The notes below the pieces were generated by a model that was given only the letters and a program-made list of their open reading frames with translations, searched no databases and was not told where the DNA came from. This document shows, in pieces, positions 6,780 to 63,413 of a stretch of 64,000 nt of DNA. The stretch comes from Bdellovibrionales bacterium (GTDB lineage Bacteria; Bdellovibrionota; UBA1018; CAIMNF01). The stretch's first letter is position 1. Each line of letters opens with the position of its first letter. A program made the position numbers and the translations under genes. The DNA is taken from positions 124,001 to 188,000 of the forward strand of contig CANNBJ010000006.1 in the NCBI GenBank assembly GCA_947502835.1, read 5' to 3'.

Positions 6780-7883
6780 ATGAAATCGGTACAATATCGC
6801 GGGAAACCCAAGAAAATCCTCGTCATTTACACCGGAGGAACCTTCGGAATGTCCGAGCAGCTCGAGATCCCGAAACTCTCGGAACGCGAGTTGAAGGCCC
6901 GATTGGAGCGCGGGGTTCCCGAAATGAAACGCATTGCGGACTGCACTGTCCGGATCGCGTTCAACATGGATAGTTGTCAGATGGGACTTGACCACTGGAT
7001 CAGGATTGCGTCTCTCCTTCACCAAGGAGCGCGTGAGGTTGACGGAGCCGTGGTTCTCCATGGAACCGACACCCTTGCCTACACTGCAAGCGCGCTTTCG
7101 TTTCTTCTCGGAAAACCCCCGATCCCGATCGTCCTTACGGGCGCTCAAAAACCCTTGAGCGCGCTCCGGAACGATGCGCGGGGAAACCTTCTCACCGCGC
7201 TCGAAGTTGCGGCCCATCCCCCTCGGGAACTCAGGAACCGCGTGATGGTGGCGTTTCATGATGAATTGTTTTTGGGCACGCGGGTACGGAAGTTGAGTGC
7301 ACTCCGTTTTTCCGCATTCGAGAGTCCAAGGTTCCCGATCCTCGCCAAGGTGGGAGGCTTGATTCAGTACCGGAACTCCATTTTTCATCTTCCCCCGCTT
7401 CCACCCAAGACAGGTCGCGTCCCGGGCCTACCCCCCGCGACCTTGAACCAGAGCAAGGCTGCCTCGATTTTAAAACTCGAGGTGACGCCGGAATTCCCGG
7501 GATCGGTTTTCGATTCCCGGATTCTCGAATCGCTGGATGGAATCCTCCTGACCCTTTACACCTCGGGAACGGCACCCACGGAAATCCCCGGCTTCCTCCC
7601 TTTCTTGCGTGCAGCACGAAAGGCCTCTGTTCCGGTGTTTGCGATCACAGAGCGGGAGGACGCTCCTGCGGCCTTGAGTTCTTATGCGGCGGGAAAAACC
7701 CTCATCCGTGAGGGCGTACTCTGGTGTCGTGACCTGACTCCCGAGGCTGCATTTGTGAAGGCGCAAGTTCTGCACCTGAGACAACGAATTGGCCAAGGAC
7801 AGTCAAAACACGCCTACCTGCAGTGGCTCGGAAAATCCTGGCATGAAAACTTGAGCGATGAGTCCTCTAGCGGACTCCTTTGA
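6780..7883 (+). CDS. ansA: L-asparaginase, type I
   Basis: This 367-residue enzyme hydrolyses asparagine to aspartate and ammonia. Both catalytic threonine motifs are present: VIYTGGTFGM near residue 14, and HGTDTLAYTASAL near 94 (Thr-Asp pair). The conserved lysine is in LTGAQKPLSALRNDA. There is no signal peptide, which fits the cytosolic type I enzyme. An in-frame ATG at 6741 exists, but ATG at 6780 puts the family's first beta strand at the usual position. The last 17 bases overlap the convergent rnhB gene. Confidence 0.88.
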   Translation: MKSVQYRGKPKKILVIYTGGTFGMSEQLEIPKLSERELKARLERGVPEMKRIADCTVRIAFNMDSCQMGLDHWIRIASLLHQGAREVDGAVVLHGTDTLAYTASALSFLLGKPPIPIVLTGAQKPLSALRNDARGNLLTALEVAAHPPRELRNRVMVAFHDELFLGTRVRKLSALRFSAFESPRFPILAKVGGLIQYRNSIFHLPPLPPKTGRVPGLPPATLNQSKAASILKLEVTPEFPGSVFDSRILESLDGILLTLYTSGTAPTEIPGFLPFLRAARKASVPVFAITEREDAPAALSSYAAGKTLIREGVLWCRDLTPEAAFVKAQVLHLRQRIGQGQSKHAYLQWLGKSWHENLSDESSSGLL

Positions 7884-58402: not shown

Positions 58403-59620
58403 ATGGCACAATCAAAGGCACTCATCGCGATTTTCTTCATCGTCTTCGTGGACATCCTGGCCTTCACTCTCGTCCTCCCGTACCTTCCTTTTTTTGCCGA
58501 ACACTTCGGAGCATCCCCCACCCAGGTGGGCCTGATCCTGACGAGCTTCTCTCTTTGCCAATTTCTTGCAGGCCCCGTGCTTGGACGCATGTCCGACACC
58601 ATGGGGCGAAAACCCATCCTGATCTTGAGCCAGATCGGAACCTGTTTTGGATTTGTGATCCTGGGCCTGGCCCAGAATCTTTGGATGGTCTACTTGGCAC
58701 GCGTTCTGGACGGGATTACGGCCGGAAATATCACCGTGGCCCAGGCCGCAATCTCGGACATCACAAAACCTGCCGAGCGGGCGAAGGCGTTTTCGCTGAT
58801 CGGCGTTTCTTTTGGCCTTGGGTTCTTTGTTGGTCCGGCAATCTCGGCATTCTTGTCACACTTTGGTCCCCAAGCTCCGGCCTGGGGTGCGGCCTTTCTT
58901 TCTTTTTGCAGCATCCTCTCCACCATCTTTCTCTTTCAGGAACCACCCCACATCCATGAAACCAAGCAGCCCTTCAAAATCAAAAGGAGCGATCTTGCAC
59001 TTGCCTTCGATTTCAAGCCGATCCTTCGCTATTTGAAGCACGAAAAGATCCGGCCGTTGATGGCTCAATTCTTCTTTTTCAATCTTTCCTTCTCGGCCCA
59101 CATCTCCTGCTTTGCCCTTTTTGCAGAGAGAAGGCTTTTGTGGAACGGGGAGCCTTTTGGCGCGAAGGAAGTCGGCTACCTCTACGCGTATCTTGGCTTC
59201 ATCGGAATTGCCGTGCGCAGCTGGGTGATCTCGGCCCTGATCAAGAAATTCGGGGAAAGAGGCACTTCCCGAATCGGATTCATCGCACAATCACTCGGGT
59301 TCGGCGGATATTTTTTCGTGGATTCCATTCAGGGCGCCCTCGTGGCCTCGACCATTTCGAGCATCGGCTCTGGACTGATCCGCCCCTCTCTTGCCGCCCT
59401 CATGTCGCACGCAGCAGACTCCAAGGAACAGGGAGTGGTCTTTGGTGTCGGTCAAAGCCTGGCATCGATCGCATCCATCATCGCGCCCTTCATTGCAGGA
59501 ATGATGATCGGCCATCTCCCCCTTGGCGCGTGGGCTCTTTTCTCGGGCGGTTCGATGCTCCTTGCATTTCTATTCCGCGAGCCGTTTTCGGAACCGAATG
59601 CCGAGCCAGAGCGCGGGTAA
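58403..59620 (+). CDS. MFS transporter, TetA/drug-exporter type
   Basis: This 405-residue 12-span transporter has the MFS motif A in the loop after helix 2 (GRMSDTMGRKPILI), DITKPAERAKAFSLIGVSFGLGFFVGPAI (antiporter motif C region), and a central cytosolic loop rich in charge (PPHIHETKQPFKIK). The family suggests proton-coupled export of a drug or metabolite. Its last 51 bases overlap the convergent anti-sigma gene. Confidence 0.85.
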   Translation: MAQSKALIAIFFIVFVDILAFTLVLPYLPFFAEHFGASPTQVGLILTSFSLCQFLAGPVLGRMSDTMGRKPILILSQIGTCFGFVILGLAQNLWMVYLARVLDGITAGNITVAQAAISDITKPAERAKAFSLIGVSFGLGFFVGPAISAFLSHFGPQAPAWGAAFLSFCSILSTIFLFQEPPHIHETKQPFKIKRSDLALAFDFKPILRYLKHEKIRPLMAQFFFFNLSFSAHISCFALFAERRLLWNGEPFGAKEVGYLYAYLGFIGIAVRSWVISALIKKFGERGTSRIGFIAQSLGFGGYFFVDSIQGALVASTISSIGSGLIRPSLAALMSHAADSKEQGVVFGVGQSLASIASIIAPFIAGMMIGHLPLGAWALFSGGSMLLAFLFREPFSEPNAEPERG

Positions 59621-60112
59621 ACCAACAAAAGCGCAGAACCAAGCCATGACAAACTCTGCATGAAGATGGGGCACACTTTTGTTCCACATGAAGGATCCGA
59701 GTACCAGAGTCGATAAAGATGCTGCGCCGAGGGCCGCATAGGGAAGAATCGGATTCGAACGAATCGCATGAAGATAATCGAGTCCAAGAAAAAAGCGGAC
59801 ATGGATCACATTCAGAAAAACAAAAACCGATCCACAATACGCCCCGCAAACCCAATGGCCGAACTCTGAAACCCAAGCCATGATTCCCTCTCCACCTCCA
59901 AGAGGTCCTATCCCGAACTGAGGACAGATCAAAAGTGTGAGTGCTCCGGAAATCACCTGAACCCTGAGCAGCTCACGCAAAACCTTGAAGAATCCGGGTT
60001 TCATCTGGCGGCGGATCTCAGACTCTGTTTTTGTAAACACATGGCTCGGGACCGATTCTACATTCCCCAAAAAATCGCCAAGCCCTTGCTCTTCCACTTT
60101 CGTTTTTTTCAC
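59570..60112 (-). CDS. Predicted membrane anti-sigma factor
   Basis: This 180-residue protein has a charged cytosolic N-terminus of about 45 residues, then four or five spans. The spans contain Cys and His: LLICPQFGIG, and EFGHWVCGAYCGSVFVFLNVIH. It starts with GTG overlapping the ECF sigma stop (GTGA), the classic sigma/anti-sigma coupling. I do not recognise the family, but context makes it the regulator of the sigma factor. The membrane Cys/His cluster could sense metal or redox state. Confidence 0.68.
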   Translation of the reverse strand: MKKTKVEEQGLGDFLGNVESVPSHVFTKTESEIRRQMKPGFFKVLRELLRVQVISGALTLLICPQFGIGPLGGGEGIMAWVSEFGHWVCGAYCGSVFVFLNVIHVRFFLGLDYLHAIRSNPILPYAALGAASLSTLVLGSFMWNKSVPHLHAEFVMAWFCAFVGLPALWLGIRFRKRLAE

Positions 60113-60657
60113 ACACGCCTCCTCAGCTTTTGCAACAATCGGCTCAACCGCTTCCGGATTGTTTCTTCCCTGACTCCTGCTGCCCTTGCCATTTCCTCAA
60201 AACTTAACTCTTGTTCGTAGCGCTGCTCCAACAACTCCCTCTGATCAGAGGGAAGCTCGGATAGGAACCTCTCCACATCTGAATCCTCCCTCTCCGAATG
60301 ATTCAAAGAAGTCATTGCAGGGGCGACATTTTCCCACTCAAGGGGATCTGTCGGGATCTCGGGGCGGGCCCCGAGCCTACGCATGCGATCCATCCACACT
60401 GACCGAGTGATGGTGTAGATCCATGCCAGGGGATGAAACTTAGGATCATACTGCTCGCGGGAACGGTGGATCTTAAGCCAAGCCTCTTGAAAAACCTCCT
60501 CCGCAATCGATGAATCCGAAATCCGCCGTTTCACAAAGGACCAAACCTTCGGAGACACCCGGGCATAGAATTTCCGAAAGGCTTCTTCGTCTCCCTCTAT
60601 GTAGAGGCGGAACAACTCCCGCTCATCGTTTTTCTGACTTAGCCCGGCCCTTTCCAT
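60109..60657 (-). CDS. ECF RNA polymerase sigma factor
   Basis: This 182-residue extracytoplasmic-function sigma factor has region 2 (DEEAFRKFYARVSPKVWSFVKRRI, SIAEEVFQEAWLKIHRSREQYD, LAWIYTITRSVWMDRMRR) and region 4 (FLSELPSDQRELLEQRYEQELSFEEMARAAGVREETIRKRLSRLLQKLRR). There is no C-terminal extension. It is co-transcribed with the predicted anti-sigma factor and divergent from the cysteine-rich peptide gene, sharing a palindromic promoter that it probably recognises. Confidence 0.92.
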   Translation of the reverse strand: MERAGLSQKNDERELFRLYIEGDEEAFRKFYARVSPKVWSFVKRRISDSSIAEEVFQEAWLKIHRSREQYDPKFHPLAWIYTITRSVWMDRMRRLGARPEIPTDPLEWENVAPAMTSLNHSEREDSDVERFLSELPSDQRELLEQRYEQELSFEEMARAAGVREETIRKRLSRLLQKLRRRV

Positions 60658-60663
60658 ATGGAT

Positions 60664-60720
60664 TTACGCATTCAAACAGAATTTTGTGACCCTGTCACAA
60701 AGAAGTAGCGGGCAACGTAA
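60664..60720. promoter_or_regulatory. Mirror-image divergent ECF promoters around a 19-bp palindrome
   Basis: TTTGTGAC-CCT-GTCACAAA (60683-60701) is a perfect 8-3-8 palindrome. On the plus strand GTCACAA (60694-60700) is followed after exactly 15 bases by CGTAA (60716-60720). On the minus strand GTCACAA (60690-60684) is followed after exactly 15 bases by CGTAA (60668-60664). Both fit an ECF-type -35/-10 pair, close to the known TGTCACA/CGTC class. One serves the cysteine-rich peptide, the other the sigma operon. Confidence 0.75.
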
Positions 60721-60745
60721 AGAAGAGTGAGAGGAGAATTTCATC

Positions 60746-60970
60746 ATGAAGAAATTCAATCAAAGCTGGGTTTACGGGATGATGTTTGCGAATCTATTGG
60801 CTTTTCAGCCGGCGGGAGCCCTTGCCGGGGACTGCGCCTGCGATGAAGCGTGCCAGAAGAAATGTGCGGAGGGAAAAGGCGACTCCTGCACATGCAAGGA
60901 ATGCGAGTGCGCAAAAGGGCACTGCAAACACGGGAAGTGCGCCCATCATCCGAAAAAAGATCAGGAATAG
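60746..60970 (+). CDS. Exported cysteine-rich metallothionein-like peptide
   Basis: This 74-residue protein has an export signal (MKKFNQSWVYGMMFANLLAFQPAGALA, cleaved before GDC). The mature part of about 47 residues has ten Cys and four His, in CAC, CTC, CEC and HCKHGKC patterns, plus many Lys and Glu. It should bind soft or borderline metal ions in the periplasm. It lacks the DUF2282 pattern of bufferins. GAGAGGAG precedes the ATG. It is read from an ECF-type promoter mirrored with that of the sigma/anti-sigma operon and has its own strong terminator. Confidence 0.82.
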   Translation: MKKFNQSWVYGMMFANLLAFQPAGALAGDCACDEACQKKCAEGKGDSCTCKECECAKGHCKHGKCAHHPKKDQE

Positions 60971-61022
60971 CGGCATTGGACAAAGCAGATTGGGCTTTTT
61001 CAGCGGTCTGAAGAAAATGGAG

Positions 61023-61077
61023 AAAGAGGATGGCGCGGAACGGATCTCTCGATCCGACGTTTCCATCCTCTTTTTTT
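61023..61077 (+). terminator. Two-stem terminator of the cysteine-rich peptide gene
   Basis: Outer arms AAAGAGGATGG / CCATCCTCTTT (11 bp, perfect) enclose a second perfect hairpin CGGATC-TCTC-GATCCG (61041-61056). Seven T follow. It starts about 50 bases after the stop codon. Confidence 0.9.
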
Positions 61078-61952
61078 ACCATTCCGTACGTCGGGATTTC
61101 CCCGATACGGCTGATCGGCTTGCATCTCAAAGGAGGCCTTCCCGCGTCCTGAACCGGCTTATCCAGCCTTGATGGTCCATCCGGACAGAACGGGTTTGCC
61201 TGCCTTCTTCGCACCGGTTGACATCAAACCGGCACCGCAACTGAAGTTGCTGCGGGCATGATTGGGGAGTCCGTTCCGTTTACCACTAAAACGAACCCTC
61301 CCACCACGTCCACCACAACTCACCGCAGAGGTCCTCGCGCAAATGCGCTTCACGACCTCATCCGCCACACTCGATCACCACGATCACCGTGTTTCCCGGG
61401 TTGATATACCAGGCTCACCCGAGATGATCAGAGTGCTTCCGTGCCTTGATTCTTCTTCTTCCAAACCGTGTTGTCCTCTCCCGCACCCGAAATCCGGAAG
61501 TCCCGTACCCTGCGGTTCTTGACTTCCAACCCTGGCCTTCGTCAAGTTTCACCCTGACTCGGCTTTTCGAACCGGCCCCTCTCGATCAACGTGGACCGGA
61601 AAGTGCATTCTTCGAGTTTCGCTTTCGCTACAACCCGGTTCTTCAGCTGCATCACGAACGATTCCGTAACGCGTTTCCCCTCCTGCACTCCCGAACCCCG
61701 TCACCGGGCCTCAGGAAAAAGAGGTGCTGCAGTGGCAACCGAAGGATTCCACCGATGGGACTTCAACCCACAAGAAGAAGAACGAGCATCGCTGCCTTCT
61801 CTCCACCACCGGATTTCTCCGGCAGCAAGAGCAGATAAAGCAGGGTTCATGCCACGTTCGTTTGCAGTTTTACTGGAGAAGAGCTGATCGAACATGCCCG
61901 CTCCGGGACGTTTTCGTACATCCGGGGGACAAATGCGGGGCAACGGACCGTT
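61078..61952 (-). other. 875-bp stretch without an intact gene; possible decayed gene
   Basis: No reading frame here has a start, a ribosome-binding site and family similarity. On the minus strand, short protein-like pieces follow one another in shifting frames: SFVMQLKNRVVAKAKLEE, then VKNRRVRDFRISGAGEDNTVW, then IISGEPG or NTVIVVIECGG, and finally an open piece ending GKPVLSGWTIKAG with a TAA at 61159. This looks like a gene broken by several frameshifts. The stretch also holds good hairpins, for example CCGGATTTCTCCGG (61809-61822, GAAA loop on the minus strand), so a structured RNA is the alternative. Confidence 0.35.
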
Positions 61953-63098: not shown

Positions 63099-63413
63099 AT
63101 GAAGACTCTGCTACCAACACTCTCCCTTATCATCCTCACTGCGTGCGCGACCACCGGCATGAACTCCGGTACCGGAACCGCATTCATCAACATGGAAACC
63201 ACCGAAGCGGTTAGCGTAACCGCTCACAAGCTGGGCACGAAAACAGGAATGGCATGTTCCTCAAACATTCTTGGCGTCTACGCTTCCGGGGATGCCTCGG
63301 TCCACACTGCAGCCAAGGCCGGAGGGATCACCAACATCACCTCCATCGACAAACAATTCACGAACTATGCTTTCGTGTACGGAAAAATGTGCACGATTGT
63401 GACAGGAAACTGA
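63099..63413 (+). CDS. TRL-like family lipoprotein
   Basis: This 104-residue protein has a lipoprotein signal MKTLLPTLSLIILTAC. The TRL-like pattern follows: GTKTGMACSSNILGVYASGDASVHTAAKAGGITNITSID, then FVYGKMCTIVTG. The family is named from a tRNA-associated locus but has no known role. AAAGGAG stands eight bases before the ATG at 63099. The frame stays open 26 codons upstream, but without signal or similarity. Confidence 0.8.
   Translation: MKTLLPTLSLIILTACATTGMNSGTGTAFINMETTEAVSVTAHKLGTKTGMACSSNILGVYASGDASVHTAAKAGGITNITSIDKQFTNYAFVYGKMCTIVTGN

Follow-up and report, generated by a model that had tools for sequence, protein, structure and literature searches.

A 64,000-nucleotide stretch from a Bdellovibrionales bacterium (assembly GCA_947502835.1, contig CANNBJ010000006.1, positions 124,001 to 188,000; hereafter the window, with positions counted from its first nucleotide) contains a locus at which the operon of an extracytoplasmic function (ECF) sigma factor and a putative membrane-bound anti-sigma factor stands back to back with the gene for an exported cysteine-rich peptide. 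This locus is probably an ECF envelope-stress switch that regulates its own expression, responds to copper-type (soft) metals and includes a metal-buffer peptide for the periplasm, and it would represent one form of a widespread and apparently undescribed copper-stress control system. The evidence consists of sequence comparison and one structure prediction, the former of which establishes the promoter pair and its conservation, the linkage of the sigma, anti-sigma and peptide genes, the metal-gene neighborhood and the invariant cysteines. A literature search of incomplete coverage yielded no paper on the present system, and the sigma factor may already bear an ECF group number, because the 2021 ECF reclassification lay outside the comparison.

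Architecture of the Locus and Conservation of Its Promoters

The two promoters diverge from a 19-bp palindrome (TTTGTGAC-CCT-GTCACAAA, 60683-60701), in which two outward -35 elements are fused back to back, such that GTCACAA-N15-CGTAA is read outward on each side. On the forward strand, the peptide promoter (60694-60720) comprises a (T)GTCACAA -35 element, 15 nt and a CGTAA -10 element, and 26 nt separate its CGTA box from the ATG. On the reverse strand, the promoter of the sigma operon (60664-60690) comprises GTCACAA, 15 nt and CGTAA, and then runs through ATCCAT straight into the ATG; the sigma mRNA is therefore probably leaderless or nearly so. The operon is composed of the sigma gene (60109-60657, reverse strand, 182 aa) and the putative anti-sigma gene (59570-60112, reverse strand, 180 aa, GTG start). 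The peptide gene (60746-60970, forward strand, 74 aa) precedes a strong intrinsic-terminator-like hairpin with a T-run (61018-61078, forward strand, -32 kcal/mol) and is therefore monocistronic. The palindrome with its mirrored promoters, the sigma/anti-sigma operon and the 74-aa peptide with ten Cys and four His had been pointed out in a preliminary description of the window, and the sequence bears out all of them exactly.

The sigma factor contains only sigma-70 regions 2 and 4 (Pfam Sigma70_r2, 6e-15, and Sigma70_r4, 5e-10; NCBIfam TIGR02937), which places it in group IV (ECF); it ends in region 4 without any C-terminal extension and does not contain a single Cys. The host, a member of the Bdellovibrionota, has a genome of 2.73 Mb that is 98% complete, in which GTCACAA-N14..16-CGTAA occurs three times, twice at the present locus, and a reversed control pattern does not occur at all. 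A motif at 63378-63404 (reverse strand) is situated within an open reading frame and is most likely a chance occurrence. Perfect inverted repeats with 8-bp arms are by themselves unremarkable (18 in the window vs. about 8 expected). For a 7-bp-arm repeat that has the same 5-mer mirrored on both sides at equal distances, the expectation is about 0.05 per window; the count is two, most likely because one repeat is read in two registers.

Whether the promoter is real or a product of chance is decided by its conservation in other members of the phylum, which speaks for a real promoter. A survey of 54 loci with an adjacent sigma gene, using the pattern GTCAC-N16..19-CGT[ACT] and shuffled upstream regions as a control, recovered a promoter facing the sigma gene in 41 loci and one facing the divergent gene in 30 (shuffle means, 0.35 and 0, respectively). 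The spacer between GTCAC and CGT is 17 nt in 36 of the 41 sigma-facing boxes, and the -10 element is CGTA at nearly all surveyed loci. In five loci of the window's own genus, the boxes are kept and the spacer sequence between the -35 and -10 elements is divergent. These observations support the earlier proposal that a single ECF sigma factor reads both promoters of the locus.

In the Bdellovibrio-like loci L091, L092, L094, and L095, the sigma/anti-sigma pair is kept, mostly without a recognizable box, and in three of them the divergent gene is membrane-pyrophosphatase-like as judged by eye; the targets of the sigma factor in these loci may have changed. The Bdellovibrio sigma factors Bd0743 and Bd0881 were not equated with that of the present system, as no homologous anti-sigma downstream is reported for them (PMC3464611).

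The Anti-Sigma Family and the Cysteine-Rich Peptide

The membrane protein encoded downstream of the sigma gene is assigned a putative anti-sigma role on the basis of gene order and topology; its gene overlaps the sigma gene by GTGA and is translationally coupled to it. Its family is present in 30 of 58 relatives and in 141 of 241 sampled Bdellovibrionota genomes (78 of 136 genera); the records holding the nearest relatives belong to Bdellovibrionales, Bacteriovoracaceae and other Bdellovibrionota metagenome-assembled genomes, plus one labelled Desulfuromonadales. The protein matches no Pfam or NCBIfam family, and a plasmid search for it and for the Cys-rich peptide gave no matches. An AlphaFold2 model from 22 sequences (pLDDT 84, pTM 0.70) predicts four transmembrane (TM) helices at residues 41-62, 86-108, 122-142, and 152-179, preceded by a cytoplasmic N-terminus of about 40 aa that would form helices at 5-16 and 23-37. 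No solved structure resembles this model, as a Foldseek search of the PDB returned nothing below E=2.6. The charge distribution favors an N-in, C-in topology, which would bring C63 (in CPQFG) and C89/C93 (in CxxxCG) together on the periplasmic side. Among 55 sequences of the family, C63, Q65, C93, and W158 are invariant (55/55) and C89 is present in 54. The preliminary description had placed Cys and His residues within the spans as the sensing groups; the cysteines are indeed invariant, but the triad sits where TM1 and TM2 are predicted to end at the periplasm, and H86, H149, and H151 show no general conservation, His being kept mainly near the window's own genus. The anti-sigma gene overlaps tail-to-tail by 51 bp (59570-59620) with a gene for a major facilitator superfamily transporter (58403-59620), and a comparable overlap exists in locus L043.

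The divergently encoded peptide carries a Sec-type signal sequence, and its expected mature form of about 47 aa contains ten Cys and four His, with the Cys pattern CxC-x3-C-x3-C-x7-CxC-x2-CxC. Homologues exist in 16 of 58 relatives, and an alignment of 17 members shares CxC-x3-C-x3-C...G...C, usually with ten Cys; no match was found in Pfam, in NCBIfam or, by sequence, among solved structures. The promoter box precedes 15 of 18 peptide genes, at 12-79 nt upstream of the ATG. One box-bearing gene (L038) lies on a contig without the sigma gene. Two of the three box-less genes (L033 and L035) belong to same-genus genomes in which the anti-sigma is likewise undetectable, which indicates that the box and the regulator co-occur; L027, the remaining one, is truncated by the end of its contig. 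A second peptide gene of the window genome (G000:C1:603149) has its own box at 603074-603100. At locus L128, the divergent position is occupied by a different exported peptide with 12 Cys (6985-7323, reverse strand), and the buffer slot may thus have been filled more than once. Past the peptide terminator, about 870 bp of the window (61080-61950) are without a convincing gene.

Metal-Related Genes at the Locus in Other Species

In other species, the position divergent to the sigma operon is occupied by genes for an outer-membrane efflux protein (OEP), CusB with a heavy-metal-binding domain (HMBD), a CusA-type resistance-nodulation-division (RND) pump, a cupredoxin, a P1B-ATPase with YHS and HMBD domains, an HMA protein and a Haem_bd protein. 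Copper or heavy-metal genes were found beside 27 of 40 wide loci and beside none of 20 equally large control regions taken from other parts of genomes in this set (Fisher p=1.5e-7), a result in which only the contrast with the controls counts, because the query proteins came from the same loci. A scan of nine other genomes located the box upstream of genes for a YHS/HMBD copper-type ATPase, an RND pump, a cupredoxin and efflux outer-membrane proteins in four genomes. The window genome itself contains a sister locus (L090, G000:C1:599000-608500) that encodes a second sigma/anti-sigma pair, OEP, Haem_bd, the second peptide, a multicopper oxidase and a P-type ATPase; the two loci share one promoter class, and cross-talk between both sigma factors is therefore likely. 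The copper-type genes beside the loci and the box suggest that the metal is most likely copper (or silver), with other soft metals as a possibility.

An exported family of about 215 aa, mainly beta-strand, beginning HPVSYKGA and not represented in Pfam, was encountered at several loci (L096 6746-7390, reverse strand; L093 3689-4315, forward strand; L097, L110, L129, L055). It repeatedly precedes an HMA protein and a 128-aa membrane protein with the sequence ICCALPALLV (MerT-like by eye) under the present promoter, and its AlphaFold2 model is of low confidence. This family is a candidate for an undescribed metal-linked outer-membrane protein.

Several points weigh against a copper-type switch, beyond the origin of the query proteins. 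No metal gene was found at 13 of the 40 wide loci, no efflux gene adjoins the window locus itself, and 13 of the 54 surveyed loci, including most of those of Bdellovibrio proper, contain no recognized sigma-facing box. The membrane protein shows no homology to any known anti-sigma domain, and a Cys-rich peptide in the periplasm is open to oxidation into disulfides.

An alternative is a thiol or oxidative-stress circuit, in which the anti-sigma cysteines sense hypochlorous acid, reactive oxygen species or disulfide stress and the peptide serves as a periplasmic redox buffer. The invariant Cys triad would suit such a sensor, and in Brucella a sigma/anti-sigma pair of the ECF16 type reportedly responds to hypochlorous acid (PMC8315932). 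However, the neighboring and box-bearing genes encode metal efflux and binding rather than redox repair, and nothing in the neighborhoods of the surveyed loci points to thiol or oxidative stress; this explanation is improbable, although it is the best placed of the alternatives. Thus, where the preliminary description had envisaged a metal- or thiol-stress circuit, the copper/silver-type neighborhoods sustain the metal link and leave the thiol link without a pointer. For a small, Cys-rich, exported product of a predatory lineage, a role as a secreted peptide with antimicrobial or signaling function is also conceivable, with the sigma/anti-sigma pair as merely its expression switch, but this is very unlikely given the metal-gene neighborhood and given that efflux and metal-binding genes take the place of the peptide gene opposite the sigma operon in relatives.

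The Palindrome as Two Back-to-Back -35 Elements

The distance between the paired -35 boxes ranges from 2 to 92 bp among the surveyed loci. A palindromic form, with the boxes 2, 3, 5, or 6 bp apart, occurs at ten loci; in most non-palindromic loci, the boxes are 12 to 92 bp apart, and in one locus they overlap. A dimer operator could not vary to this extent, whereas two independent -35 elements could; the palindrome thus consists of two such elements placed back to back and is not a dimer operator. The search of related genomes next to sigma genes that the preliminary description had suggested thus recovered both the promoter and, at those ten loci, the palindrome, but the view of the palindrome as a special unit has to be given up. 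A perfect dyad between divergent genes, in which TGTGA...TCACA is like a pair of CRP half-sites, could in principle be the operator of a dimeric regulator of both genes, either CRP/FNR-like (TGTGA-N-TCACA) or a metalloregulator. CRP requires N6, a spacing seen in none of the conserved palindromes, which read GTGAC-N2,3,5,6-GTCAC (TGTGA-N4,5,7,8-TCACA); at most loci, 12-92 bp separate the two halves, and each half has its CGT box at a constant distance of 16-18 nt. A CRP/FNR site was accordingly rejected, and an operator of any such kind is very unlikely.

Relationship to Known Systems

The closest parallel is the SigF-NrsF/bufferin system of Caulobacter crescentus, in which an ECF sigma factor and a multi-span anti-sigma with Cys lie beside an operon encoding a metal-binding, Cys-containing peptide exported by the Sec route, in connection with metal stress (PMC3511200; PMC12452194). 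Substitution of two conserved Cys of NrsF raises expression of the regulon (PMC3511200), and bufferin binds copper (PMC12452194). A similar promoter on the sigma and peptide units is a further common feature, and it is present at the window locus. By contrast, the present anti-sigma is non-homologous to NrsF by profile (hhalign probability 7%), has four TM helices instead of six and carries three Cys in CxQF and Cx3CG motifs; PF06532 matched neither the 22 anti-sigma members nor the window genome in a search in which the Caulobacter control was positive, and membership in the SigF-NrsF family was thus rejected. The weakest of all alternatives, that the peptide is a bufferin, a ribosomally synthesized and post-translationally modified peptide matured by an MNIO enzyme into a thiooxazole copper chelator, draws on a Sec-exported Cys-rich precursor whose neighbors, an ECF sigma factor and a multi-span anti-sigma, recall those of Buf1 clusters (PMC12452194, PMC3511200), but is hardly tenable, as MNIO (PF05114) was not found in the 98%-complete window genome and is present in just 2 of the 15 genomes that carry a peptide gene, the window peptide is unrelated to DUF2282, and no bufferin, DUF2282 or NrsF match was obtained with Pfam/NCBIfam profiles (the Buf2 profile of PMC12452194 lay outside this comparison). 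True NrsF loci do exist elsewhere in Bdellovibrionota (26 of 192 genomes), and 4 of 8 examined loci of this type carry TGTAACC-type boxes instead of the TGTCACA/CGTA promoter. One of the true NrsF loci, L161, has back-to-back divergent TGTAACC-type promoters at 2751 (reverse strand) and 2827 (forward strand).

ECF41 factors are characterized by a TGTCACA/CGTC promoter consensus and a C-terminal SnoaL-like extension of about 100 aa. Only the TGTCACA -35 element is common to ECF41 (PMC3426412) and the present system. The likeness to ECF41 raised in the preliminary description stands for this element, as does the lack of the extension noted there, but it goes no further, because the -10 element is CGTA, not CGTC. 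The missing extension and the CGTA element exclude membership in ECF41, and the present system has, in addition, a membrane anti-sigma. CorE and CorE2 of Myxococcus xanthus (ECF44, now ECF238) sense copper through their own Cys-rich extension without an anti-sigma. The present system appears to share a copper-type metal response through an ECF factor; its Cys-free sigma factor and its anti-sigma set it apart from the CorE type. In the CnrYXH system, CnrY has one TM helix and CnrX is a separate periplasmic sensor. In this metal-responsive system of Cupriavidus metallidurans, the ECF factor is held by a class II membrane protein, whose N-terminal binding segment consists of two short helices that wrap around the sigma factor (PMC7406223). 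The two short helices predicted before TM1 in the monomer model of the present anti-sigma may or may not bind in this way, and here the system consists of one four-span protein with Cys. The peptide resembles bacterial metallothioneins (SmtA, MymT) in being small and Cys-rich with CxC motifs, but differs in its export signal peptide, and a metallothionein-like metal binding is predicted from the Cys pattern only.

A Model of the Switch and Its Implications

For the protein contacts and metal chemistry of the copper-type switch, we infer the following course of events. In unstressed cells, the four-span anti-sigma would use its short cytoplasmic N-terminus of two helices to retain the sigma factor at the inner membrane. 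Periplasmic metal, most likely Cu(I) or Ag(I), would bind at the C63/C89/C93 site, located where TM1 and TM2 end on the outer side, where the three Cys could form a trigonal Cu(I) site, and the metal-bound anti-sigma would let go of the sigma factor. The holoenzyme containing the freed sigma factor would then read TGTCACA-N15/16-CGTA promoters. One target in the window would be its own operon, providing positive feedback and fresh anti-sigma for shut-off; the other would be the Cys-rich peptide, which would be exported and would chelate metal in the periplasm.

The merging of two -35 boxes in one palindrome suggests that the promoters are co-regulated and that their simultaneous occupancy is probably impossible; a distance of 3 bp between the boxes would probably leave no room for two holoenzymes, and mutually exclusive firing may reasonably be supposed. 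It is tempting to speculate further that the CxQF/Cx3CG proteins form a new class of ECF anti-sigma factors that sense Cu(I) directly and act as the main copper switch of Bdellovibrionota, and that the palindrome works as a splitter in some lineages, a tentative extension that we hold to be possible but not probable. Each bound holoenzyme would then fire only one of the two units, the sigma operon or the peptide gene, and such a splitter would tie output to a limit on autoamplification.

In this phylum of predatory bacteria, the regulator occurs in over half of the genomes sampled and is unnamed in protein-family libraries. If the model is correct, it would account for the handling of metal stress by a lineage that feeds inside or on other bacteria, and it would provide a defined promoter sequence for the prediction of regulons in uncultured Bdellovibrionota. 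The locus would also be a second, independently built design of an ECF sigma factor, a Cys-containing anti-sigma and an exported buffer peptide besides that of Caulobacter, and, as a second independent example, it would make the logic of this design testable by comparison.

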